This document shows positions 28,954 to 40,291 of a DNA stretch of 48,802 bases, piece after piece. Below the pieces are notes generated by a model, which worked only from the letters and a program-made list of their open reading frames with translations, searched no databases and was not told the origin of the DNA. The stretch lies in the NCBI GenBank assembly GCA_023248635.1, contig JAHFED010000049.1:1-48802 (forward strand), written 5' to 3'. The first letter of the stretch is position 1, and every line of letters begins with the position of its first letter. The position numbers and the translations under genes were made by a program. This stretch comes from Myxococcales bacterium (GTDB taxonomy: Bacteria > Myxococcota > UBA727 > VGSZ01).

Positions 28954-29112
28954 AGAACCGAACCGCCTGCGCCGTACAGGACGTACGGCTCGTCGCTCCA
29001 TCCGGCCTCCTCGCCGCCGACTTCGTCGGGCACCGCCTCGCTACGGTGTAGGATGCGGATCGGCTCTCTGGTCCTCGGCTTCGCTACACTGCAACGACGA
29101 GGAAGGGACACC

Positions 29113-29625
29113 ATGGCCAAGGGTCCGGCGTATCGGCTGCAGGTCCTGTTCGAGATGCGCGACAAAGCCAAAGAGGCCGCCGAAGAGGTCTACGCGGCCA
29201 AGAAGAAACTGGTCGTTGCCGAGCAAAAGAAGCTCGATGATATGAAGATTCATTTGAAAGAAATGATTCAGAAAAGACAAGAGAAAAAGGCCGACTACGC
29301 CGAGCGCACTCGCAAGGGTGAATACACGATTAATCAGATCCAGCAGAACGATCGCCACATTGAAAAGATGAAGCAGCAGGAGGCGGCCTATCAGGTGGAG
29401 ATCGACCGCCAGCAGGAGCGGGTCGTCGAAGCCGAACGCGTCGCCGACGAAGCCATGCAGCAGCTCATCAAGGCCACCCAGGACTACAAGGCGCTCGAGA
29501 AGCACAAAGAGAAATGGCAAAAAGCGGTCAAGCGCGAGCTGGCGATGAAGGAAGAGGACCAGATCGAAGACATCGCGCAGGCGCAGTACTTCAAGAAGCT
29601 CCTCGAACAATTGGGTGATGGATGA
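29113..29625 (+). CDS. FliJ/SctO-like coiled-coil protein (170 aa)
   Basis: The ATG at 29113 follows a strong AGGAAGG ribosome binding site (about 29100-29106); the upstream in-frame ATG at 29053 is less likely. The whole protein is charged coiled coil, starting MAKGPAYRLQVLFEMRDKAK, which resembles the N-terminus of FliJ and its type III secretion counterpart SctO/YscO. Those proteins form the central stalk of the export ATPase. Part of the gene (29230-29350) has lower GC and more AAA/GAA codons than its neighbours, as expected for a Lys/Glu-rich coil. No other flagellar or secretion gene is nearby, so an orphan role, or simply a coincidental coiled coil, remains possible. Confidence 0.7.
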   Translation: MAKGPAYRLQVLFEMRDKAKEAAEEVYAAKKKLVVAEQKKLDDMKIHLKEMIQKRQEKKADYAERTRKGEYTINQIQQNDRHIEKMKQQEAAYQVEIDRQQERVVEAERVADEAMQQLIKATQDYKALEKHKEKWQKAVKRELAMKEEDQIEDIAQAQYFKKLLEQLGDG

Positions 29626-29948: not shown

Positions 29949-30142
29949 GGCCGCGGGCCGTTCACGACCGTCGACGCCGAAGGGTGCGCGTTTCTGATAC
30001 GCGTCGATGAGCAGGCGGCGTCCACAGCCAGCCGGCTTGGCCGTTGGGCGCCAGATCAAGAGGTCGAAAAGTTGGAGAAGGATGGGACCGGACTCATTGT
30101 GGCTCCGGCGGGCACCCACTGGTGACCGTTGGAGGAGACCGG

Positions 30143-31876
30143 ATGCACAACGCCCGCCTGACCGAGCGCGCTTCCTTTCAGGGACAGGTCGACGTCGTTC
30201 CGCACGCCAGCGATCGGCCGCTGCGCGTGTGGGGACAAGACGTCTCTGAGACCGGGATGTTCCTGCAGACGACCCAGCCCTTTTGCGCCGGCGAGACCGT
30301 CTCTTTGCGCTTCGACGTCGACGAAGCCGAGGTGCACGTTCGCGCCGCCGAGGTCGTGTGGGTGCGTGGGCCTGTGCGCGTTGACGGCAAGGTGCCGGGC
30401 ATCGGTCTGCGCTTCCTCTCGCTGGATGCCCGCGCGCGTTCGGCGCTGCGCCGGCGCGCTCGTCCTGTCGAAGAAGCGCGGGACACCATCGTCGACGTCG
30501 CTCCCGCCGAGAGCCGGTCCGCTGGCGGTGGGCCGGCCGGCCAGGGGCTGCCCGAACCGCGCGTGACCCTGCCACCCCTCACCGAGTCGATTCTGCAGAA
30601 AGCCCGGGGCCTGTTTCGCTCACGCCGGATCCGGCAGGAAGCCGCCGGAGCTGACGTGCCGACGCTGTCGCTCGCTCCCTTCTCGCGCCCACCGCTGGCG
30701 ATCTCTCTGCCCCCCGATCAGCCCCCAAGCCCGCGCGCCGTGACCCTGGGGCCGGCGCCGCGCGAGCGCCGGCTCGAAGGGGACGACGCCGACGTCGACC
30801 TCTTCGTGGGCTGGACCTTCCGCCCGCGCGACAAGGACGACGAATTCACCGACAGCGCTTCGCGTGTCGGTCAATTGTCTACAGGTTCATCGCCTGGCGG
30901 CGATGAATTGGCCGCCCGGCCTGAGGGCAGAGAATTCCACGAGCCCTTCGACGACGACGCACCCTTCTCGCTGATCAAGAGCATCATCGAGGATCCTTCG
31001 ATTGTGGAGAGCGCCTCCCTGCCACCTGAGGACTCTCGCGAGACGCCCTCCTTGGACGCGGGCCCGCAGCGGGACGAGTTCCTGCTCGGGAGCCTGCCCC
31101 CCGCGGTCGACGAGGGCGCCCTGTCCATCAGGCACTTGCCTTTGGTCGACGAGCGACGGCCCGCGCCCCGCACCCAGCACCGCCTGCGCACCGCAGCGAC
31201 CTTCATCCTGGCCGGCAGTTGCGCGGGCGCTGTGGTGGGGATGCTGCTGCACGAGCGCGGGCAGACGACGACGACGACGCTGAGCTCCTTGCCGGCGCCG
31301 GTCACGAGCGCACCTGGCGCCCAGCCAGAGCCTTCGTTGCCGACGCTTCAGCCCTTGGTCCCGCCTTCGGTCGACGTCGCTGAAGTCGGGCTGCCGCGCG
31401 CCGAAGCTCCGCGCCTGGCTTTGATTCAGACCATCGCAACGGACCAGGCACCGCCCGCGGCGACAGCGCACAAGAGCGCGCCGAACCAGCCCAAGGCAGC
31501 GTCGACGGGCGCCGGGCGGGCACCGGCAGCGACGAGCTCGGGTCCGAGCGTTGCCGCAAACAACCAGGCCATCGGCAAGACGACCGCCAGCTCCCCCAGG
31601 GCGCGGCCCGGGCACCTCGAGGTCGATCTGCCGCTGGCTGGCAAGGTGAAGGGCGTGTTTGCTCTGTCCTCGCCGAGCCGAGTCGTCATCGACCTCGAGG
31701 GGGCGCGTCTGCCGGCCGCGACCATGAACATCGATGAGGGCGGCATCGTGCAACTCCGCTTTGGGCACCCCCAGCCGCAGATCCAGCGCGTCGTCGTCGT
31801 CGTCGCTGGCGACAAGCCGCAGCAACCGCGCGCGCGCGTGGCCGGGCAACGCCTCCGGGTGAGCTGGGGCAGCTGA
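30143..31876 (+). CDS. PilZ - transmembrane - AMIN-like protein (577 aa)
   Basis: The ATG at 30143 follows GGAGGAGA (30131-30138). Residues 1-110 are a PilZ domain with RLTER (5-9, RxxxR) and DVSETGMFL (DxSxxG), so c-di-GMP binding is likely. Residues 110-350 are a long disordered, acidic and Pro-rich cytoplasmic linker. A single transmembrane helix lies at about 352-372 (AATFILAGSCAGAVVGMLL), followed by a Pro/Ala/Ser linker. The last ~85 residues (from HLEVDLPLAGKVKGVFALS) look like an AMIN domain, known to bind peptidoglycan or secretin components in the periplasm. It would couple a cytoplasmic second messenger to the cell envelope. It ends 122 bases before the sigma-factor operon on the same strand. 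Confidence 0.82.
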   Translation: MHNARLTERASFQGQVDVVPHASDRPLRVWGQDVSETGMFLQTTQPFCAGETVSLRFDVDEAEVHVRAAEVVWVRGPVRVDGKVPGIGLRFLSLDARARSALRRRARPVEEARDTIVDVAPAESRSAGGGPAGQGLPEPRVTLPPLTESILQKARGLFRSRRIRQEAAGADVPTLSLAPFSRPPLAISLPPDQPPSPRAVTLGPAPRERRLEGDDADVDLFVGWTFRPRDKDDEFTDSASRVGQLSTGSSPGGDELAARPEGREFHEPFDDDAPFSLIKSIIEDPSIVESASLPPEDSRETPSLDAGPQRDEFLLGSLPPAVDEGALSIRHLPLVDERRPAPRTQHRLRTAATFILAGSCAGAVVGMLLHERGQTTTTTLSSLPAPVTSAPGAQPEPSLPTLQPLVPPSVDVAEVGLPRAEAPRLALIQTIATDQAPPAATAHKSAPNQPKAASTGAGRAPAATSSGPSVAANNQAIGKTTASSPRARPGHLEVDLPLAGKVKGVFALSSPSRVVIDLEGARLPAATMNIDEGGIVQLRFGHPQPQIQRVVVVVAGDKPQQPRARVAGQRLRVSWGS

Positions 31877-31998
31877 CGCTACGCCCTCTGTGACTGCCCG
31901 AAGCGGCCAAGATCCATCGGTCCGAGGCGTCTTTTTCGGCGTGGTTCGGCGTCTGGCGGCGCTGTCGGGGCTCGCGCTTTCTGTGGGAGACCCCAGCA

Positions 31999-32565
31999 GT
32001 GTCCATCTCACAGATGAAAGACCAAGAGCTCCTGACCGGGCTCTACCGCACCCACGGAGGTCGCGTGTACGCCCGCTGTTTCTACTTGCTGAGGAACAAA
32101 GAGGAGGCGCAGGACGCGCTGCATGAAGTCTTCATCAAGGTGCACAAGAACCTCGCCGGCTTTCGCAACGAAGCGAGTCCGCTGACCTGGATGACGCGCA
32201 TCGCCACGAACCACTGCCTCAACGTGCTGCGCGCCAAGCGAGCCCCCTGGCACGAGAAATACAAGCAAGAGGTCGACGTCGGCGTCGCTGCGTCTGTGGC
32301 AGGTGGCGGCGGCGCCGGCTTCTCGTTGCTCGAGAACCGCGAGTTGCTGCGCTTGTGTCTGGCCAAAGTCGCGACCACCGACGGCTCGCTGGCCGAGCTC
32401 GCCACCTATGCCTTCGTCGACGACATGAAGCAGGCCGACATCTGCGTGCTGGTGGGCATGAGCGCCCCCACGCTGCGCAAACGCCTGCGCGAGTTCATCA
32501 CCATCTGCCGCGCCGAGATCGAGGCCCACGTGCCGGGCGTCGTCTTTGCCCCCGCCCCCATCTGA
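31999..32565 (+). CDS. ECF-type RNA polymerase sigma factor (188 aa)
   Basis: The GTG at 31999 has GGAGA eight bases upstream; an ATG at 32014 is an alternative. Region sigma-2 is clear at about residues 15-85 (LYRTHGGRVYARCFYLL, QDALHEVFIKVHKNL, SPLTWMTRIATNHCLN), the part that binds core polymerase and the -10 element. The C-terminal HTH (about 140-175, MKQADICVLVGMSAPTLRKRL) matches sigma-4 only loosely. Its stop is 8 bases before the GTG of the next gene (anti-sigma-like) and the caspase-like gene overlaps that one, so all three form one operon, the usual arrangement for an ECF factor and its regulator. Confidence 0.88.
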   Translation: MSISQMKDQELLTGLYRTHGGRVYARCFYLLRNKEEAQDALHEVFIKVHKNLAGFRNEASPLTWMTRIATNHCLNVLRAKRAPWHEKYKQEVDVGVAASVAGGGGAGFSLLENRELLRLCLAKVATTDGSLAELATYAFVDDMKQADICVLVGMSAPTLRKRLREFITICRAEIEAHVPGVVFAPAPI

Positions 32566-32575
32566 GGAGTGCCTC

Positions 32576-33400
32576 GTGACCGCTGCTCCAACGATTTTCT
32601 TGCCGGAGGTGCCTGACGGCGACGACGTGGGTCTTGCCCCCTCCATCTCTCGCTTCGAGCTCGAGCGCTTCATTTGTGGCGAGCTGCCGCCCGAGCGGCG
32701 TGCGGTCATCGATCGCGCCCTCGCGGCCGATCCTGCGCTCAAGGCCCTGCACGACGACGTCGTCGCCGCCGATCGCGCCTTCTTGATCGAGCAGCCCCCG
32801 CTTCCTTTCTTTCAGCGGCCGGCCAAGGCCCCCTCGTGGTGGGCGGGCCTGCTCTCTCATTGGCATGCGGGCTTGGGAGCCGCAGCCGCCGCAGCAGCCG
32901 TCGTGGTCGTCGTCGTCGTCGCGACCCCGGACGAGAGCAACCGCACCAAAGGCGGTGTCGAAGGACCACGGGTCTCCTTCTTTGTGAAGGAAGAGAGCGC
33001 AGCGCGTCTCGGCCACGCTGGGGAGGAGCTCAAAGCCGGCGACCAGATCCAGCTGGCGGTCAAAGACGTCGACAAGAAGGCCCTGGTCGTCGTCGGCGTC
33101 GACGGCGCGGGCAGCGTGACGGTCTATGCGAGCGAATCGGTGCAGGGCGGGCTGTCGAAGGGCGCTGGCTCGCCGCGGGTGCTGCCGGCTTCGTTGGTGC
33201 TCGACGAGACCACCGGGCCCGAGCGCTTCTTCGTCGTCTACGGCGACGACGTCGACACGCTCTTGCAGGCGGTGGACTCCGCAGCCCGGCACCTCGGTGA
33301 CGACGTCAAAGCCGGACGCGCCGATCTGGCCCGCACCGATCAGCTGCCGCTGGGCGCTGCTTTTCCCCAATCGTCGGTCCACATCGTCAAGATCCGGTGA
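32576..33400 (+). CDS. Membrane anti-sigma-like protein with DUF4384-like outer domain (274 aa)
   Basis: The GTG at 32576 has GAGGAG at 32564-32569, overlapping the sigma stop, so it is preferred to the TTG at 32546. The N-terminal ~75 residues (ISRFELERFICGELPPERRAVIDRAL) resemble the sigma-binding domain of anti-sigma factors, without the HxxxCxxC zinc motif. A single transmembrane helix made almost only of Ala and Val (about 107-125) follows. The outer domain (about 140-250) has 'LKAGDQIQLAVKDVDKKALVVV...GSVTVYA', like DUF4384 domains found in or beside caspase-like proteins. Inference: it holds the sigma factor at the membrane and senses an envelope signal, perhaps through the caspase-like protein encoded next (4-base GTGA overlap). 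Confidence 0.82.
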   Translation: MTAAPTIFLPEVPDGDDVGLAPSISRFELERFICGELPPERRAVIDRALAADPALKALHDDVVAADRAFLIEQPPLPFFQRPAKAPSWWAGLLSHWHAGLGAAAAAAAVVVVVVVATPDESNRTKGGVEGPRVSFFVKEESAARLGHAGEELKAGDQIQLAVKDVDKKALVVVGVDGAGSVTVYASESVQGGLSKGAGSPRVLPASLVLDETTGPERFFVVYGDDVDTLLQAVDSAARHLGDDVKAGRADLARTDQLPLGAAFPQSSVHIVKIR

Positions 33401-35052
33401 CGCGAGCCTTGCCGCTCCTGTTCACCATCGGGGCGCTGCTGCTGGCGCCGGGCGAGGTGCTGGCGGCGACGGCCCATGTGCAGCGCTTTGCTCTGCTGAT
33501 TGCGGCCCACGACGGCGGCAAGGAGCTTCCCCGTCTGCGCTACGCCGGCCGCGACGCCACCCGACTCGCAGACGTGCTGGTCGACGTCGGCGGCTTCGAG
33601 CGGGCGGACATTCTCTCCGTCGTCGACGGCGACGCCAGCGTGGTGCTCGACCTCTTTGACGAGCTCGAACAGCGCGTGCAGCAGGCCAAAGCCCGCGGCG
33701 ATGACGTCGTCGTCGTCGCCTACTACTCCGGCCACGCCCAAGACGGTCGCCTGCGGCTGGGCCAGACCACCCTGGAGATGAGCGAGCTGCGCCGGCGCCT
33801 CGAGACCTCCAGCGCCGACGTGCGCCTGGGCTTCCTTGATTCCTGCGGCGCGGGGGCCATCACGCAGGGCAAAGGCGCGACCCTGGCTGCACCCTTCGTG
33901 GTGCGGGTCGACGAGGACCTCAGCGCCAAAGGCCAGGTCATCATCGCCAGCTCCTCCTCCGACGAGGTCTCCCAAGAAAGCGACGACATCCAGGGCAGCT
34001 TCTTCACCCACTATCTGGCGAGCGGCTTGCGCGGCGACGCCGATCGCTCCCGCGATGGACGCGTCACCCTCGACGAGGCCTATGCCTACGCCTACGGCCG
34101 TACGGTGGCAGCGACCTCGGCGACCCGCGCCGGCGCCCAACACCCCACCTACGCCTTCGAGCTCAAGGGCGCCGGCGACGTCGTCCTCACCAATCCGGGC
34201 GACGCCTTCGTCACCGTGGAATTCCCCGAGGTGCTCGAGGGCCGCTACTTCGTCGTCGATCTCGAGCGCCAGCTCTTTGTCGCCGAAGTGGAAAAGCAAA
34301 AGGGCGGGGCCAGCCGCATCGCCCTGCCCAAGGGCCAATACGCCGTGAAAAAGCGCCTGGACTCCCACCTGCTGATCACGCGGGTGCAAGGCCTGCAGAA
34401 GGGCACCATCGTCATCGACGACGCCACCATGGAGCGGGTCGCTTTCAACAACGACTACGCCAAGGGCACGCCCATCTCGGTATCGGCCAGCTTGGATCGA
34501 GAGATCGGCTTCTCCCTCGCCGGAGGCGTAGGGCTGCAGCAGGTCCTGGGTCCCGTCGACGACGGCGGCCTCTTTCCCACCATGCCGCTCTTCGTGCTCG
34601 ATGCGCGCGCCCACCACCTCTTGCGCAGTCAGCTCACCCTCGACGTCGACCTGGGCTTCGGCTCGGTGCAGGCCGTGCGCACCGTCGACGGCGGCGCCTT
34701 GGGATCGGTGGACTTCTCCGTGCAGGCCAGCGAGGTACAAGGCGGGGTCGCCGTCTTGTGGGAACAGCCCCTGCGAGAGCTCCTGGGCAGCGACGTCGTC
34801 GTCGGCGCCGGACCGCGCATGGCCGGCTTGTTCTTCGTGCACGAATTCAACGGCGCCACGCGGCCCCAGGGGCTCACGCAGCAGAGCTATCTGACCTTCA
34901 CGCCGGGGATCGCGGCCTTCGTCGCCTGGTCGCCTTGGGACTTTGCCCACCTCGAGGTCTCGGCGCGGGCCCAATACCTCGCCTACAACGTCGACGAGCT
35001 GCGTCACATGGCGGTGCTCGAGGGCTTCGCCTCCGTTTGGCTGGATCTCTGA
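33397..35052 (+). CDS. Secreted caspase-like protein with C-terminal beta-barrel-like domain (551 aa)
   Basis: The GTG at 33397 overlaps the anti-sigma stop (GTGA). Signal peptide at 1-24 (LLFTIGALLLAPGEVLAATA). Residues about 28-265 form a caspase/metacaspase (C14) domain: strand FALLIAAHDG, then RDATRLADVL, the catalytic His in AYYSGHAQ (His113) and catalytic Cys in GFLDSCGAG (Cys150), both intact. Residues about 270-355 are a linker domain of unknown type. Residues about 360-551 show alternating polar/hydrophobic strands typical of an outer-membrane beta-barrel (GFSLAGGVGL, LTLDVDLGFG, LEVSARAQYLAY, ending ASVWLDL). A periplasmic protease fused to an outer-membrane barrel, co-encoded with a sigma/anti-sigma pair, suggests envelope-triggered proteolytic signalling. 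That role is inferred. Confidence 0.85.
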   Translation: MTRALPLLFTIGALLLAPGEVLAATAHVQRFALLIAAHDGGKELPRLRYAGRDATRLADVLVDVGGFERADILSVVDGDASVVLDLFDELEQRVQQAKARGDDVVVVAYYSGHAQDGRLRLGQTTLEMSELRRRLETSSADVRLGFLDSCGAGAITQGKGATLAAPFVVRVDEDLSAKGQVIIASSSSDEVSQESDDIQGSFFTHYLASGLRGDADRSRDGRVTLDEAYAYAYGRTVAATSATRAGAQHPTYAFELKGAGDVVLTNPGDAFVTVEFPEVLEGRYFVVDLERQLFVAEVEKQKGGASRIALPKGQYAVKKRLDSHLLITRVQGLQKGTIVIDDATMERVAFNNDYAKGTPISVSASLDREIGFSLAGGVGLQQVLGPVDDGGLFPTMPLFVLDARAHHLLRSQLTLDVDLGFGSVQAVRTVDGGALGSVDFSVQASEVQGGVAVLWEQPLRELLGSDVVVGAGPRMAGLFFVHEFNGATRPQGLTQQSYLTFTPGIAAFVAWSPWDFAHLEVSARAQYLAYNVDELRHMAVLEGFASVWLDL

Positions 35053-35102
35053 TCGTGGGGCAAGCTCCTTTCTGCTTCGAACTGCTGTGGGGTCCATCAC
35101 TC

Positions 35103-36143
35103 ATGCTTCGCGTCGTCGTCGTTGCGGCCTTGGGTGCTTGGCTCGGTGGGCTCGTCGGCTGCGGCGACCTCTCCGAAGAAGACCTTTTGTTTCGCGCCGC
35201 GGTGCCGCCGAAAGAGGCCGTGGCGGTGACGCCGCCGGGGAGCGGCGACATCGACGAAGGGGGCAACAGCCTGGTGCAGGGCCTCATCGTCGTCTGCGCC
35301 GAGGGCGATCTGCGTTGCGAGGCGCAGAAGATAGCGACGGGCTTCAACACCCTGACCTTCGGCCTCCTCGACGCCATCGACGCCGTCGCTGCCTTGACGC
35401 CCACCATTCGCGAGCGCGGCCGCCGCATCTGGGGTCCGATCTACGATGCTCAGAAGGACCAGACCTTCCGCTTCGAGATGGTGCGCGCCGACGACGACGT
35501 CACCTTCACCTTCTGCCTCTTCATGGCCCAGGGACAGGTCGAGCTCGGCGAGCGCAACCGCGAGCTCAACTGCGACTCTCTCGAGCCGGGCTTTCTGAAC
35601 GTCTTCTCGGGCTCCTTTCAGCCCTCGTCGATCGAGGACGGGGCCCGCCGGGGTCAGGGCACCATGCGCTTCGAGGCCGACAGGGTGAGTCGCTTTGATG
35701 GCTCTTCTCCCTTCGCGCGCACGCTGGACTTCGCCTTCGACAACCAGCAGGAGCGCACCGACATCCACGTCGACGTTGTCGGCGCCTCCGTCGGCGATGA
35801 GGAGCGCGACGCCGCCTACGACTTCGAACGCGAGGCCGACGGCAGCGGCACCTTCTTGTTCGACGTCTTCGCCGACTTGATCTCCCAAGGTTTGCTTCCC
35901 ACCCGCCGCCTCGAGCACATCCGCCTCTCTGCCCGGTGGAACGTCGAGCAAGGCGGTCGCGCCCTCGGCGTCGTCGACGACGGCGACATCGCCATCGGCA
36001 GCGTCTTGACGGTGGAGCAGTGCTGGGCCGCCGCACCCGAGTTTGAGACCAGCTACTTCGACGTCGTCGACGACGTCGTGCAGCCTGTCGGCGACGCCGA
36101 CGCTTGTGTGTTCGCTGTGGCGGATGTCACTCCCGCAAGCTGA
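35103..36143 (+). CDS. Outer-membrane lipoprotein of unknown function (346 aa)
   Basis: The ATG at 35103 gives a signal peptide with lipobox LVGC (Cys near residue 20); the longer frame starting at 34758 lies inside the caspase-like gene and is rejected. The mature part has mixed beta content with Cys pairs (VVCAEGDLRCEAQ; FTFCLFM...LNCDS; VEQCWAAA). No known domain recognised. It follows the caspase-like gene after a 50-base gap on the same strand and may belong to the same operon. Confidence 0.78.
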   Translation: MLRVVVVAALGAWLGGLVGCGDLSEEDLLFRAAVPPKEAVAVTPPGSGDIDEGGNSLVQGLIVVCAEGDLRCEAQKIATGFNTLTFGLLDAIDAVAALTPTIRERGRRIWGPIYDAQKDQTFRFEMVRADDDVTFTFCLFMAQGQVELGERNRELNCDSLEPGFLNVFSGSFQPSSIEDGARRGQGTMRFEADRVSRFDGSSPFARTLDFAFDNQQERTDIHVDVVGASVGDEERDAAYDFEREADGSGTFLFDVFADLISQGLLPTRRLEHIRLSARWNVEQGGRALGVVDDGDIAIGSVLTVEQCWAAAPEFETSYFDVVDDVVQPVGDADACVFAVADVTPAS

Positions 36144-36308
36144 GCGGATGGTCAGGTGGGTGCGGGTCGCAGTACACGCAGCCACCACCAGTGTCGTCAA
36201 AGTGCACACCTGTTGGGCGGCGTCGATGGCGTCAGCGTGCGCCGACGCCGAAAGGCGGATGGCATGTCTCGTGAGTTCCGGCGATCACTTGCTCGCCGGG
36301 AGGCCCTC

Positions 36309-38216
36309 ATGATCCGTCCGCGTTCGATCGCCTTGATCCTCAGCTTCGTCGCCGTGCCCGCCGCCGCCTTCTCACCAGCGGAGGCCGCGAGTGCCGCCCA
36401 GCGCCTGGGGCGCCCTTTGCCCAGCGTGATCCAAGTCGCGCCCCGCGCGCAGCCAGCCGATCGCCCGGGGATGCTCTTTGCTCCCGGTGGAGCGGCGCTG
36501 CCCATCTACTTGAACCGCCATGGCGGCAACTACCAATGCGGCGACGACGACAGCTCGCGCAATCTCTCCTCGGTGGTGTGCCCGGGCAGCGGTGAGATCG
36601 GCGGCTTCTCGGGCAGCGACAGCCAATGGACCCGCGTGCTCGACTGCGTCACCGAACAGTTCGCGCCTTTCAATGTCCGCGTCACCGACGTCGAGCCGAC
36701 CAGCGGCGCCTACGTCGAATCGCTAGTGGGCGGCACCCCCGATCAAGCGGGCATGCCCCAAGGCGTCGGCGGCGTCGCTCCCTTCTCGTGCGGCCTCATC
36801 GACACCGCCGTCGTCTACACCTTCGCCGACGTCTACGGCGGTGACACCCAGGGCATCTGCGAGACCGTGGCCCAAGAGGTCGCCCACGCCTTCGGGCTCG
36901 ATCACGAGTTCCTCTGCGAGGATCCGATGACCTACCTGAGCGGCTGCGGCGACAAGAGCTTCCTCGACACCTACTCCCCCTGTGGCGAATTCGAGCCGCG
37001 CCAGTGCCAATGCGGCGACGCCAGCCAGAACAGCGTGCAGATGATGCTGCAAGTGCTCGGCGCTTCCGACGGCAGCGTCGCTCCGCCGCCGACCGACGAT
37101 CTCGAGATCCCAACCGTCTCCATCACCAGCCCCGCCGACGGCGACATCCTCGAAGCCAACGGTCCCATGACGGTGGTGGCCGAAGCCCACGACGACGTCG
37201 GACTGCCGACGGTGGAGCTCGAGTGGGACTTCACGGCCAGCCTCATGTTCTGCCCGGCCAGCTTCGAGCAGACCGGCAACTACGAGTGCTCGCGCCAAGG
37301 CGACCGCTACACCTGGAACATCAACGTCGGCGCCGGCGCACGCACCTTCCGCGTTCACGTCGTCGATGTCGTCGGCAACGAAGCCACCACCGACACGCGC
37401 GCGGTGTGGCTCTCCGAAGACGGCAGCGGTCCTCCCACCGACGGCGGCGCTCCCACGGTCTTTGTCGCCACGCCGGCGGATGGTTCGGTGTTGCCCGCCA
37501 ACGACACGATGGAGGTCGTCGCCGCCATCGCCGACGACTCCGGCATTGCCCGCGCGGAGTTGGTGTGGAGCCAAGGGGACCAGGTCTTTGCCTGTCCGCT
37601 GGACACCCAAGGCGTCACCTGTGTCGTCGACGGCTCGACGTACACTTGGAGGCTCGAGGTCGGAGAAGGCTCGCGTTCGTTCTACGTTCGGGCCACTGAC
37701 GTCGTCGGCAACGTCACCGAGAGCGCAGGACGCACCATCGAGCTCGACGTCGGCGCCACCGCCATAGACGACGACGACGACGACACCCTGGGAGCGGCCA
37801 CGACCTTGGGTTGTGGGGAGTCCCTCGATCTCGTCGCCTCCGACGCCGACTGGTTCAGCGTCGATGCCCCGAGCGGGCGCACGGTGACCGTGAGCGTGAG
37901 CGGCGACGCCGCCGGCAGCGTGTCGCTGGTTGCGACCCGTGGTCCCCTGGACACCGACGTGCTCGGCAACGGCGCCGACGACGTCGACTTCACCGGCGAC
38001 GGCGAGCCCGTGGGCGTGGCGGTGGTCCCCGACGACGCCGCCGCCGGCAACTACCACATCACGGTGGTCTGCGAAGAATCCACCGGCGAGGGAGCGAGCG
38101 CGGTGGCACCCGCTGGGGGCTGTGGCTGCACGCAGACCAGCAGCGACGGCGTTGGGGCCGGGTTGGGGCTGTTGGTGCTGACGCGCTTGCGTCGCCGGCA
38201 CCGCCGCGCCGGCTGA
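36309..38216 (+). CDS. Zincin-like secreted protein with Ig-like repeats and MYXO-CTERM anchor (635 aa)
   Basis: The ATG at 36309 follows GGGAGG at 36298-36303. Signal peptide 1-27. Residues about 65-245 form a metzincin-like domain: QEVAHAFGLDHE at 189-200 fits HExxHxxGxxH except that the first His is Gln, and a Met-turn-like DPMTYLSG lies at about 206-213. Conserved Cys residues suggest disulfides. Two bacterial Ig-like repeats follow (from about 267 'PTVSITSPADGDIL' and about 380 'PTVFVATPADGSVL'), then a PPC-like domain. The C-terminus has GGCGCTQ, a hydrophobic stretch and RRRHRR, a MYXO-CTERM sorting signal, so it is anchored at the surface. Whether it is an active protease is doubtful because of Gln189. 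Confidence 0.85.
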   Translation: MIRPRSIALILSFVAVPAAAFSPAEAASAAQRLGRPLPSVIQVAPRAQPADRPGMLFAPGGAALPIYLNRHGGNYQCGDDDSSRNLSSVVCPGSGEIGGFSGSDSQWTRVLDCVTEQFAPFNVRVTDVEPTSGAYVESLVGGTPDQAGMPQGVGGVAPFSCGLIDTAVVYTFADVYGGDTQGICETVAQEVAHAFGLDHEFLCEDPMTYLSGCGDKSFLDTYSPCGEFEPRQCQCGDASQNSVQMMLQVLGASDGSVAPPPTDDLEIPTVSITSPADGDILEANGPMTVVAEAHDDVGLPTVELEWDFTASLMFCPASFEQTGNYECSRQGDRYTWNINVGAGARTFRVHVVDVVGNEATTDTRAVWLSEDGSGPPTDGGAPTVFVATPADGSVLPANDTMEVVAAIADDSGIARAELVWSQGDQVFACPLDTQGVTCVVDGSTYTWRLEVGEGSRSFYVRATDVVGNVTESAGRTIELDVGATAIDDDDDDTLGAATTLGCGESLDLVASDADWFSVDAPSGRTVTVSVSGDAAGSVSLVATRGPLDTDVLGNGADDVDFTGDGEPVGVAVVPDDAAAGNYHITVVCEESTGEGASAVAPAGGCGCTQTSSDGVGAGLGLLVLTRLRRRHRRAG

Positions 38217-38378: not shown

Positions 38379-38591
38379 ATCCCGCGTCCGCTTGATGTTC
38401 GACCGCGTTCCGAGATGGAAAGACGCGGGATGATGCGCGTGAAGCGCGCCCGCGGAACGCGGAGTTGGTGGGGGGCCCCGCGTCCGGCTCCGCCGGCGCG
38501 GGGGGAGGTCTGCACCAGACCTCCCAGAAGAGCATCCCCGACGGCGATGAACGAGACCGCTCCGCGGTCGAAGTTCAGCGAGATCGGGGAT
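38379..38591. repeat. Structured ~213-base dispersed repeat, copy 1
   Basis: About 97% identical to 44829-45042, same orientation. It contains several perfect stems: 38403-38411 with 38454-38462 (9 bp), 38503-38512 with 38516-38525 (10 bp, 3-base loop), and 38534-38541 with 38584-38591 (8 bp), the last enclosing a further GACCGC/GCGGTC hairpin. The right end touches the stop codon (38591-38593) of the Omp85-like gene. It lies between convergent genes. It could be a REP/MITE-like mobile element, a terminator module or a structured RNA; no coding potential was seen. Confidence 0.85.
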
Positions 38592-40156
38592 CAGAAGGGC
38601 TGGTTGATGGTCAGGTAGACCTGGGTTGCATAATTTTCTACCGGCGAGGCGGCGATGTCCAAACGGATAATGAAGTTGTCATTCCAGGCAACGCGCAGGG
38701 CGCCACCGCCGCCGCCCACGGTTCCGAGGTTCTTGGGATTGGCGAGCTCGTCGCCGATGATGGCGGCGTCGATAAAGGCGGCCAGGGTGAAGGCGAAGTT
38801 CTGTTCGAGGAAGTCGACTTCATAAAATCGATAGCGAAGCTCGGCCTGATCCAAGATCTTCAATTTCCCGAGATAGCGCTGCACGCGGATCCCGCGACCC
38901 GTGTCTGAGCCGCCAAAGGCGTACACGTCCTGACTTCCACCCAGCCGGGCGAGCTCCTGGATGGGGATGTCGCCGACGACGCCGTCGAAGGTGAGGCGAT
39001 TGGCCATCACCAGGCGCCGACCCAGCTCGGGGAACAGGGGGACGTAGCGGTAACCGCGCACGGTGGCGTTGAAACCCGCCCAGGTCCACGTCGACGCCCA
39101 CGCGGGGGTCGCTGCTCGCACCGAGCCTTCGATCCACCAGCCTTCGGTGGGCGCTGGCTCGTTGTCGCGCGAGTCGGTCATCAGGCCGAGGTTGAGCACC
39201 GAGTCGAAGCCCGGCTCGCCGTCGGGGTGGTCCTTGGCGAAAAGCGACCCGGGGTAGGGCGTGAGATCGGGAGCGCCGTCGCCGTCGTCGTCGCCGAAGG
39301 CGTTGCCGGGGATGAAGTAGAAGCCGCGGTAGCCGCCGGTGACCTCGACGCGCGGGCTGTCGGCGCTCTTCTCGACGAGGGCGTAGCGCAGGTTCACCAG
39401 ACCGTAGGGGTTCAGAAAACGGCGCTGGTAGAAGTGCCGCACGAACTCCTCGCGGGCGACGTCGTCGAGGCCGCGGGCGTCGGCCTCCTGCTCGGCCACT
39501 TTTACGTCGCAGCTGACGACGCCGCCGACGCCGCAGTAATTCTGGGTGAGCGAGCTCAGGTAGCCGACCCGAGCCGTGAGGCGCAGCGGCAGATCGAAGA
39601 GATGCAAGGTGTCGACGAGGACGTTGTGGTCTTGCACCAGGTTGGTGGTGGCGAAGATCTGCAGCGTCACGGCGGTGCGGTAGGGCAGGGTCACGCCGTC
39701 GTTGAAGTAGGCGGCGGCGATGACGCCGAGGCCGAGCCCGTTGTCCGAGGTGTAGTTCACCGCCGGGATGCCGCTGAAGGAGACACCGCTGGGCTTGGCA
39801 GCCGTCGGCCTCTTGACCAACACGGGGGGGGCGGGTTCGCTCGCGTCGTCGATGGCAGAGCTGGCGACGTCGACGGCGTGGGCTGGTCTCTCGTCGGCGG
39901 CGGCAGGATCATCGACGGCAGTGGCCGGGGCGTCGCTGGCGGTGGCGGGCACCGTGCTCGGCAGGATCGGGCTGTCGTCGGCGGTGGTGGCGACGTCGGT
40001 GGCCGTGCTGTCGGCGTCGGTGGTTGCCGTCGCGCTCTCGGTTGTGGTGGGCAAGGTGTCGTCGACGACGGGGGCGGGATCGGCGCTCTTTTTTTCGGCC
40101 GCAGCCGCGGCCAGAGCGAGAAAGGAGACGACAGCGACGACGAGGAGGCGGGTCAT
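38591..40156 (-). CDS. Omp85-superfamily (BamA/TamA or surface-antigen) outer-membrane barrel (521 aa)
   Basis: The ATG at 40156 gives a good signal peptide (LLVVAVVSFLALAAAAA); the ATG at 40192 adds a charged tail. Residues about 20-110 are a Thr/Asp/Ala-rich disordered linker. From about 120 onward there are alternating strands typical of a 16-stranded barrel: start GVSFSGIPAVNYTSDNGLGLG, and near the end AFGGSDTGRGIRVQRYLG, AELRYRFYEV, ending YLTINQPF with a terminal Phe, as in outer-membrane proteins inserted by BamA. POTRA domains were not seen, so it resembles the POTRA-less surface-antigen (D15) class more than BamA. Its last codons overlap structured repeat copy 1. Substrate unknown. 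Confidence 0.8.
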   Translation of the reverse strand: MTRLLVVAVVSFLALAAAAAEKKSADPAPVVDDTLPTTTESATATTDADSTATDVATTADDSPILPSTVPATASDAPATAVDDPAAADERPAHAVDVASSAIDDASEPAPPVLVKRPTAAKPSGVSFSGIPAVNYTSDNGLGLGVIAAAYFNDGVTLPYRTAVTLQIFATTNLVQDHNVLVDTLHLFDLPLRLTARVGYLSSLTQNYCGVGGVVSCDVKVAEQEADARGLDDVAREEFVRHFYQRRFLNPYGLVNLRYALVEKSADSPRVEVTGGYRGFYFIPGNAFGDDDGDGAPDLTPYPGSLFAKDHPDGEPGFDSVLNLGLMTDSRDNEPAPTEGWWIEGSVRAATPAWASTWTWAGFNATVRGYRYVPLFPELGRRLVMANRLTFDGVVGDIPIQELARLGGSQDVYAFGGSDTGRGIRVQRYLGKLKILDQAELRYRFYEVDFLEQNFAFTLAAFIDAAIIGDELANPKNLGTVGGGGGALRVAWNDNFIIRLDIAASPVENYATQVYLTINQPF

Positions 40157-40291
40157 GGGCTCATCCTGTGCCGAGGAGGCCCGAGAAGTCATGTCTTGGA
40201 TCCGTCGCGCAGGCTGGCTTTTCTGAGGCTGCCCGCTTCGCGTGTGCGAGAGGTCCCCCGAAGCCTCAGGCCGGGGGCCACTCCTGTCCCG

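Follow-up and report, generated by a model that had tools for sequence, protein, structure and literature searches.

Four of the five metacaspases of Myxococcus xanthus have been reported to lie in operons with sigma factors, and the same arrangement was described in Anaeromyxobacter, Haliangium and Sorangium (Asplund-Samuelsson et al. 2012, PMC3501461). The locus analyzed here shares with those sigma-70/metacaspase operons a sigma factor and a caspase homolog encoded in one conserved operon of the same lineage, and the published operons are almost certainly the same systems or siblings. The initial annotation of this DNA named no characterized example of this fusion and operon; the association of sigma factors with metacaspases in operons had been published in 2012. 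In the passages of that paper considered here a barrel is mentioned nowhere (0 occurrences), and no anti-sigma factor, lipoproteins, promoter or cleavage sites are described, all of which are features of the present locus; relative to those passages, the barrel, the lipoproteins, the promoter and the cut sites appear to be new. Two other systems present partial similarities. The two-gene EACC1-caspase system (PMC7159879) also pairs a membrane protein with a caspase, of a subtype only loosely alike: the best NCBIfam match of the window caspase is the EACC1-caspase model NF047832, at 69.9 bits, below the cut-off of 140. The EACC1 system has no sigma factor, barrel or lipoprotein, whereas the neighbor of the caspase is here an anti-sigma factor. 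ECF54 (PMC8999054) shares a proposed proteolytic control of an ECF sigma factor by neighboring products that include a CHAT caspase-fold protein, but it has no anti-sigma factor and its named representative is an actinobacterium.

With the Escherichia coli SigmaE-RseA-RseB system and its DegS and RseP proteases, the locus has in common an ECF sigma factor, a single-pass anti-sigma factor, a periplasmic, likely site-1 protease and an additional operon-encoded envelope regulator. DegS is a PDZ serine protease of the inner membrane, encoded elsewhere than the SigmaE operon, whereas the protease here is a caspase tied to a predicted outer-membrane barrel and encoded within the operon. In the FecA-FecR-FecI system, too, an ECF/anti-sigma pair is linked to a barrel protein of the outer membrane that has a periplasmic domain. 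FecA is a 22-stranded TonB-dependent transporter; the barrel considered here is predicted to have eight strands and is fused to a protease. The operon may belong to ECF/anti-sigma signaling by regulated proteolysis of the RseA type, a candidate site-1 cut being suggested by a conserved juxtamembrane Lys-Gly pair specific to caspase-linked anti-sigma factors. Literature searches on caspase-like site-1 proteases and on orthocaspases with sigma factors returned no paper.

Architecture and conservation of the operon

The window, a stretch of 48,802 nucleotides, makes up a whole contig (G000:C82) of a genome whose 135 contigs total 6.53 Mb, and the relatives used for comparison belong to the Myxococcota. 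Its operon stretch (31978-36143) comprises four co-directional genes encoding a sigma factor, an anti-sigma factor, a caspase-barrel protein and a lipoprotein (Table 1). Pfam domains and open reading frames agree with the set of sigma, anti-sigma and caspase genes outlined in the initial annotation, and the overlap that it noted between the caspase GTG and the anti-sigma stop (GTGA) is present. The annotation had omitted the lipoprotein gene lying within the same span, and had placed 8 bases between the sigma stop and the anti-sigma GTG, which are in fact separated by 10.

Table 1. Coordinates of the operon features in the window
Feature	Position	Strand	Evidence or remark
Promoter-like motif TTTCTGT-N14-GTGTCCA before sigma, predicted autoregulated promoter	31978..32005	+	Only exact match in the 6.5-Mb genome
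ECF sigma factor	32014..32565	+	Sigma70_r2 E=3.2e-14; likely start ATG 32014
Membrane anti-sigma factor	32576..33400	+	N-terminal cytoplasmic domain, one TM segment, periplasmic DUF4384-like domain
R123-T-K125-G126, anti-sigma juxtamembrane periplasmic motif, candidate cleavage site	32942..32953	+	Conservation
Secreted caspase-like protease with predicted C-terminal barrel (551 aa)	33397..35052	+	Pfam, AlphaFold2, Foldseek
Caspase domain, residues 26-262	33472..34182	+	H113 at 33733-33735, C150 at 33844-33846
K159-G160, loop after catalytic Cys, candidate autoprocessing site	33871..33876	+	87/87; pLDDT<50 at 158-175
Beta-rich middle domain, residues 263-355	34183..34461	+	AlphaFold2 model
K356-G357, linker before barrel, candidate self-release site	34462..34467	+	K 87/87, G 86/87; linker 357-367 pLDDT<50
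Predicted 8-stranded outer-membrane beta-barrel, residues 371-550	34507..35046	+	AlphaFold2 and Foldseek
Second motif copy	35069..35096	+	2 mismatches; 6 bp before lipoprotein ATG
Lipoprotein (lipobox Cys20)	35103..36143	+	Family absent from Pfam

Profiles from relatives recovered the same order and strand of the four genes in 20 wide regions from 20 genera, except at contig ends. In the best 80 named loci from public genomes, with only loci having enough flank scored for each gene, the sigma gene was in place in 70/70, the anti-sigma gene in 72/72 and the lipoprotein gene in 71/71. The order that the initial annotation had suggested seeking in other Myxococcota is thus kept in every testable locus of both samples, and its conservation is far beyond chance. 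These 80 loci belong to Myxococcota (the named ones spanning Anaeromyxobacter, Archangium, Corallococcus, Myxococcus, Pyxidicoccus and Citreicoccus) or to apparently mislabeled records. In two records, labeled Comamonas sp. KCTC 72670 and a Klebsiella pneumoniae MAG, the operon is of the typical Myxococcota form, and these records are probably mislabeled or contaminated. A second, homologous lipoprotein gene lies ahead of the sigma gene in 49 of 65 loci; the window genome has no such upstream copy. The operon was not found in a sister genome of the same genus (94% complete), and it is therefore not universal.

The identification of the first gene as an ECF sigma factor holds: its Sigma70_r2 match (Table 1) and the NCBIfam sigma70-ECF model TIGR02937 (49.8 bits against a cut-off of 42.9) both pass, and region 4 is weak (Sigma70_r4_2 E=0.032, below cut-off). 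Its start had been placed at GTG 31999. That codon is the GTG of the conserved GTGTCCA motif, so ATG 32014 is the likelier start, and the N-terminus read from it matches orthologs such as MTDQELLRKLYEAYG.

The product of the second gene is predicted to be a membrane anti-sigma factor, able to bind and inhibit the sigma factor, from its position, its N-terminal domain and its single transmembrane segment; its homologs adjoin the sigma gene in 72/72 loci. The zf-HC2 domain is matched by 14 of 32 orthologs and not by the window copy. The outer domain, described as DUF4384-like in the initial annotation, matches DUF4384 (PF14326) weakly in the window copy (E=0.075, below cut-off), and 16 of 32 orthologs match it at E<=0.01. 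Eight genomes yielded 15 loci for DUF4384-type anti-sigma factors, and every one of these adjoins a caspase gene, which in three cases lies on the other side of the sigma gene from the usual order. Two DUF4384 anti-sigma genes that seemed to lack a caspase proved to have one upstream of the sigma gene. Within this sample of eight genomes, the caspase and the anti-sigma family occur together.

The caspase, its predicted barrel and the lipoprotein family

Peptidase_C14 (PF00656) matched the window caspase with E=2.8e-9 (37.5 bits against a cut-off of 21.4) and was found in 24/24 family members. The retention of His113 and Cys150 noted at the outset extends to the whole family: H113 (YYSGH), D148, C150 (DSC) and E194 are invariant in 87/87 unique sequences. 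Foldseek searches with the caspase domain returned both metacaspases and caspases, including Yca1, caspase-7, caspase-3, AtMCA9 and legumain. These results point to a C14-type caspase fold with a His-Cys dyad and a predicted protease activity. The AlphaFold2 model of the protein (24 relatives) has a mean pLDDT of 81.5 and a pTM of only 0.60, so the arrangement of its domains is uncertain. The beta-rich middle domain occurs also in sigma-linked caspases that do not carry this barrel.

The C-terminal outer-membrane barrel proposed in the initial annotation is recovered in this model, which places exactly eight long strands at residues 371-550, after a disordered linker. Foldseek searches with the C-terminus matched OmpA (E=6.6e-8) and OmpX (1.8e-7), as well as Ail and NspA, with TM-scores of 0.72-0.76 against the smaller barrels (TMt 0.76 for NspA); the sequence profile also picks NspA at the barrel (E=0.004), and a Pfam outer-membrane barrel is matched in 3 of 24 family members. 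The C-terminal domain is therefore predicted to be an 8-stranded outer-membrane barrel of the OmpA/OmpX type. Both termini of such barrels are periplasmic, and hence the caspase domain should face the periplasm, with the barrel in the outer membrane. Sigma and DUF4384-type anti-sigma operons whose caspases carry other C-termini, some of them barrel-like or hydrophobic, were also observed (L080-L089 and L200-L217); in three of these (L215-L217) the caspase gene lies on the opposite side of the sigma gene.

The lipoproteins encoded by the fourth gene and its homologs share three invariant cysteines (Cys20 of the lipobox and, near the C-terminus, C307 and C335) in 65 sequences, none of which matched a Pfam family. 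The AlphaFold2 model of the window lipoprotein is confident (pLDDT 86.7, pTM 0.84), and Foldseek found no relative for it among solved structures (best E=0.03, probability 0.03), on which account an RseB/LolA-like assignment was dropped. The family is present in 138 of 193 genomes of the phylum, and the window genome carries two further lipoprotein genes elsewhere. At four loci (L097, L109, L111 and L126), the caspase-barrel gene is followed by lipoprotein genes in tandem, two or three in number. Members of the family were also observed in three genomes where no barrel-caspase operon was found (G167, G184 and G042), and the family therefore has a role outside the operon too. As a predicted regulon member and operon partner, the lipoprotein may sense or restrain the protease. 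Searches of the four operon proteins against Pfam, NCBIfam and PADLOC gave no defense-system or known equivalog assignment, PADLOC returning no credible match.

A promoter-like motif and its predicted regulon

The motif preceding the sigma gene (Table 1) recurs before the operon in other Myxococcota. In 31 of 60 loci the exact words TTTCTGTTTT-N11-GTGTCCAT occur ahead of the gene that opens the operon (the second lipoprotein), against 0.14 in shuffled sequences, and looser versions stand ahead of the operon in most of the remaining loci. Across 146 genomes there are 51 exact motif matches, against about 7-8 for a reversed control, usually one per genome and before this operon. In the window, the chance expectation for the motif with up to 2 mismatches, as in its second copy, is 0.08. 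A slightly degenerate pattern has two perfect sites in the window genome, one at the operon and the other before the lipoprotein paralog on contig 36, and its one-mismatch sites include those before the contig 40 paralog and the window lipoprotein. One-mismatch sites are no commoner genome-wide than in the control, and it is therefore their position before all the lipoprotein genes that is telling. The genome thus has motif sites before the sigma gene and before each of its three lipoprotein genes, which implies an autoregulated sigma factor with a small regulon, and the sigma factor presumably reads TTTCTGT-N14-GTGTCCA. Regarding solitary lipoprotein genes, clear sites precede the two of the window genome and one elsewhere (L286), with a weak site at another (L281); several solitary lipoprotein genes of other genomes presented no motif, and where a genome has no such operon, none was found before these genes. 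No enrichment of the usual ECF promoter consensus (GGAAC..GT) was seen in the region ahead of the operon.

Conserved Lys-Gly pairs and a proposed signaling mechanism

Out of 551 residues, the only fully invariant basic ones in 87 caspases are K159, R320 and K356, and two of these three, K159 and K356, are followed by glycine in loops predicted to be disordered. K159-G160 closely follows the catalytic Cys, within the loop where caspases undergo processing between subunits; K356-G357 is located in the linker before the barrel. A third pair is found in the anti-sigma factor, in which K125 is the sole invariant column of the alignment. It belongs to an R-x-K-G motif that immediately follows the membrane segment in the periplasm, a location at which a lysine runs against the positive-inside rule. 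This motif is present in 74 of about 81 intact anti-sigma factors, and the remainder keep K followed by G, A or S. Among 17 zf-HC2 control anti-sigma factors from seven Myxococcota genomes, picked independently of any caspase, none has a juxtamembrane K-G (0/17).

The same pattern extends to the operons with other caspase C-termini. Sigma-linked caspases of this kind have K-G after the catalytic Cys in 10/10 cases; where the middle domain ends, 10/10 have K-G or R-G, with K swapping only with R. The anti-sigma factors of non-barrel caspase operons present the juxtamembrane K-G in 9/9 cases. One anti-sigma factor has R-G instead of K-G, and two caspase-paired ones (L205/L217 and L212) have no clear K-G. 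The K/R swaps at the tether and anti-sigma sites fit a basic P1 residue, and would be allowed by it. A basic P1 is also predicted from two invariant acids, D148, two residues before the catalytic Cys, and E194, which we take, from the motif register, to stand at the place of caspase-1 Arg341; PDB sequence alignments spanned only the first half of the caspase domain, so the S1-pocket assignment is tentative. Metacaspases are reported to cleave after arginine and lysine (Vercammen 2004, cited in PMC6426788). The K-G pairs may be structural, K159-G160 shaping the active-site loop and K125-G126 beginning the DUF4384 fold. All three pairs are conserved and lie at places where a cut would be of consequence.

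The anatomy of the operon, its conservation and the barrel are well supported; the mechanism that we infer from them is specific and testable. We favor, with moderate confidence, an autoregulated envelope-signaling operon in which the caspase becomes active, frees itself from the barrel and acts as the site-1 protease of the anti-sigma factor. The anti-sigma factor would hold the ECF sigma factor at the inner membrane, while the exported caspase would be anchored by its barrel in the outer membrane with the caspase domain in the periplasm. A signal would be perceived through the barrel, the middle domain or the lipoproteins and would activate the caspase, which, as the conservation of the pairs suggests, would cut after lysine at K159-G160 for maturation and at K356-G357 for release from the barrel. 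The freed caspase could then cross the periplasm and cut the anti-sigma factor at K125-G126, just outside the inner membrane; self-release would explain how a protease fixed in the outer membrane reaches a site near the inner one. By analogy with RseA/RseP, a site-2 intramembrane protease would finish the anti-sigma factor and free the sigma factor, which would use TTTCTGT-N14-GTGTCCA promoters to transcribe the lipoprotein genes and the operon that encodes it. The lipoproteins, as the main predicted regulon, probably feed back on the protease or the barrel.

The initial annotation had proposed a circuit in which the caspase and the anti-sigma factor meet across the envelope to release the sigma factor. 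The invariant Lys-Gly pairs in the anti-sigma juxtamembrane segment and the caspase loops, together with the absence of the anti-sigma motif from all 17 control anti-sigma factors, lend further support to this predicted circuit. Autoregulated operons often encode effectors, and the caspase might instead be the output of the system, the sigma factor inducing a barrel-tethered protease and lipoproteins for other targets (developmental lysis or predation, for instance) while a DegS-like protease cuts the anti-sigma factor. A role of Myxococcus metacaspases in developmental cell death has indeed been proposed (PMC3501461). We consider this unlikely, since it leaves unexplained both the pairing of the anti-sigma K-G with a caspase (about 81 + 9 paired loci against 0/17 controls) and the presence of a caspase gene beside every DUF4384-type anti-sigma locus found.

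That same anti-sigma K-G weighs against the very improbable reading in which the caspase acts on other envelope proteins, its K-G sites serving its own processing only and the lipoproteins or the barrel restraining it, a reading with which the location of K159-G160 and K356-G357 within the protease and the predicted lipoprotein regulon both agree. The presence of an outer-membrane barrel and a membrane anti-sigma factor in one operon also resembles cell-surface signaling, and the barrel protein could conceivably bind the periplasmic domain of the anti-sigma factor stoichiometrically, signaling by conformation as in FecA-FecR-FecI; such a non-cleaving role is improbable, as it would not require the His and Cys that are invariant in 87/87 sequences, and the eight-stranded barrel is unlike the TonB-dependent kind.

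To our knowledge, little is established about what bacterial caspases naturally do, and they are usually discussed in terms of cell death. If the proteolytic mechanism favored here is true, a large class of them would be signaling proteases that switch on gene expression across the envelope, reaching an ECF sigma factor from the outer membrane by a route distinct from those of DegS/RseA and FecA/FecR/FecI. The sister operons, whose caspases end in other anchors and have K-G or R-G at corresponding positions, would then reflect a general Myxococcota design, and the substrate, cut site, promoter and regulon, all of them predicted, could be tested in a few mutants of a myxobacterium. There is a fair chance that the system merits a class of its own. 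Its fuller definition as a trans-envelope signaling class, with a barrel-held caspase, one Lys-Gly code for self-activation, self-release and substrate, and a new lipoprotein family as its regulon, is put forward more tentatively, with slightly less than even odds.

Further genes were noted around the operon. Directly upstream lie a YscO-like gene (29053-29625; PF16789 E=5.5e-21), of the type III secretion/flagellar stalk kind, and a gene for a protein with PilZ and AMIN domains (30044-31876). Directly downstream of the lipoprotein gene, positions 36156-38216 encode a secreted protein that combines bacterial Ig-like domains (Big_7) with a metalloprotease-like HAFGLDH stretch. An outer-membrane protein of the Omp85 superfamily (PF01103 E=3.6e-11) is encoded on the opposite strand at 38591-40192.
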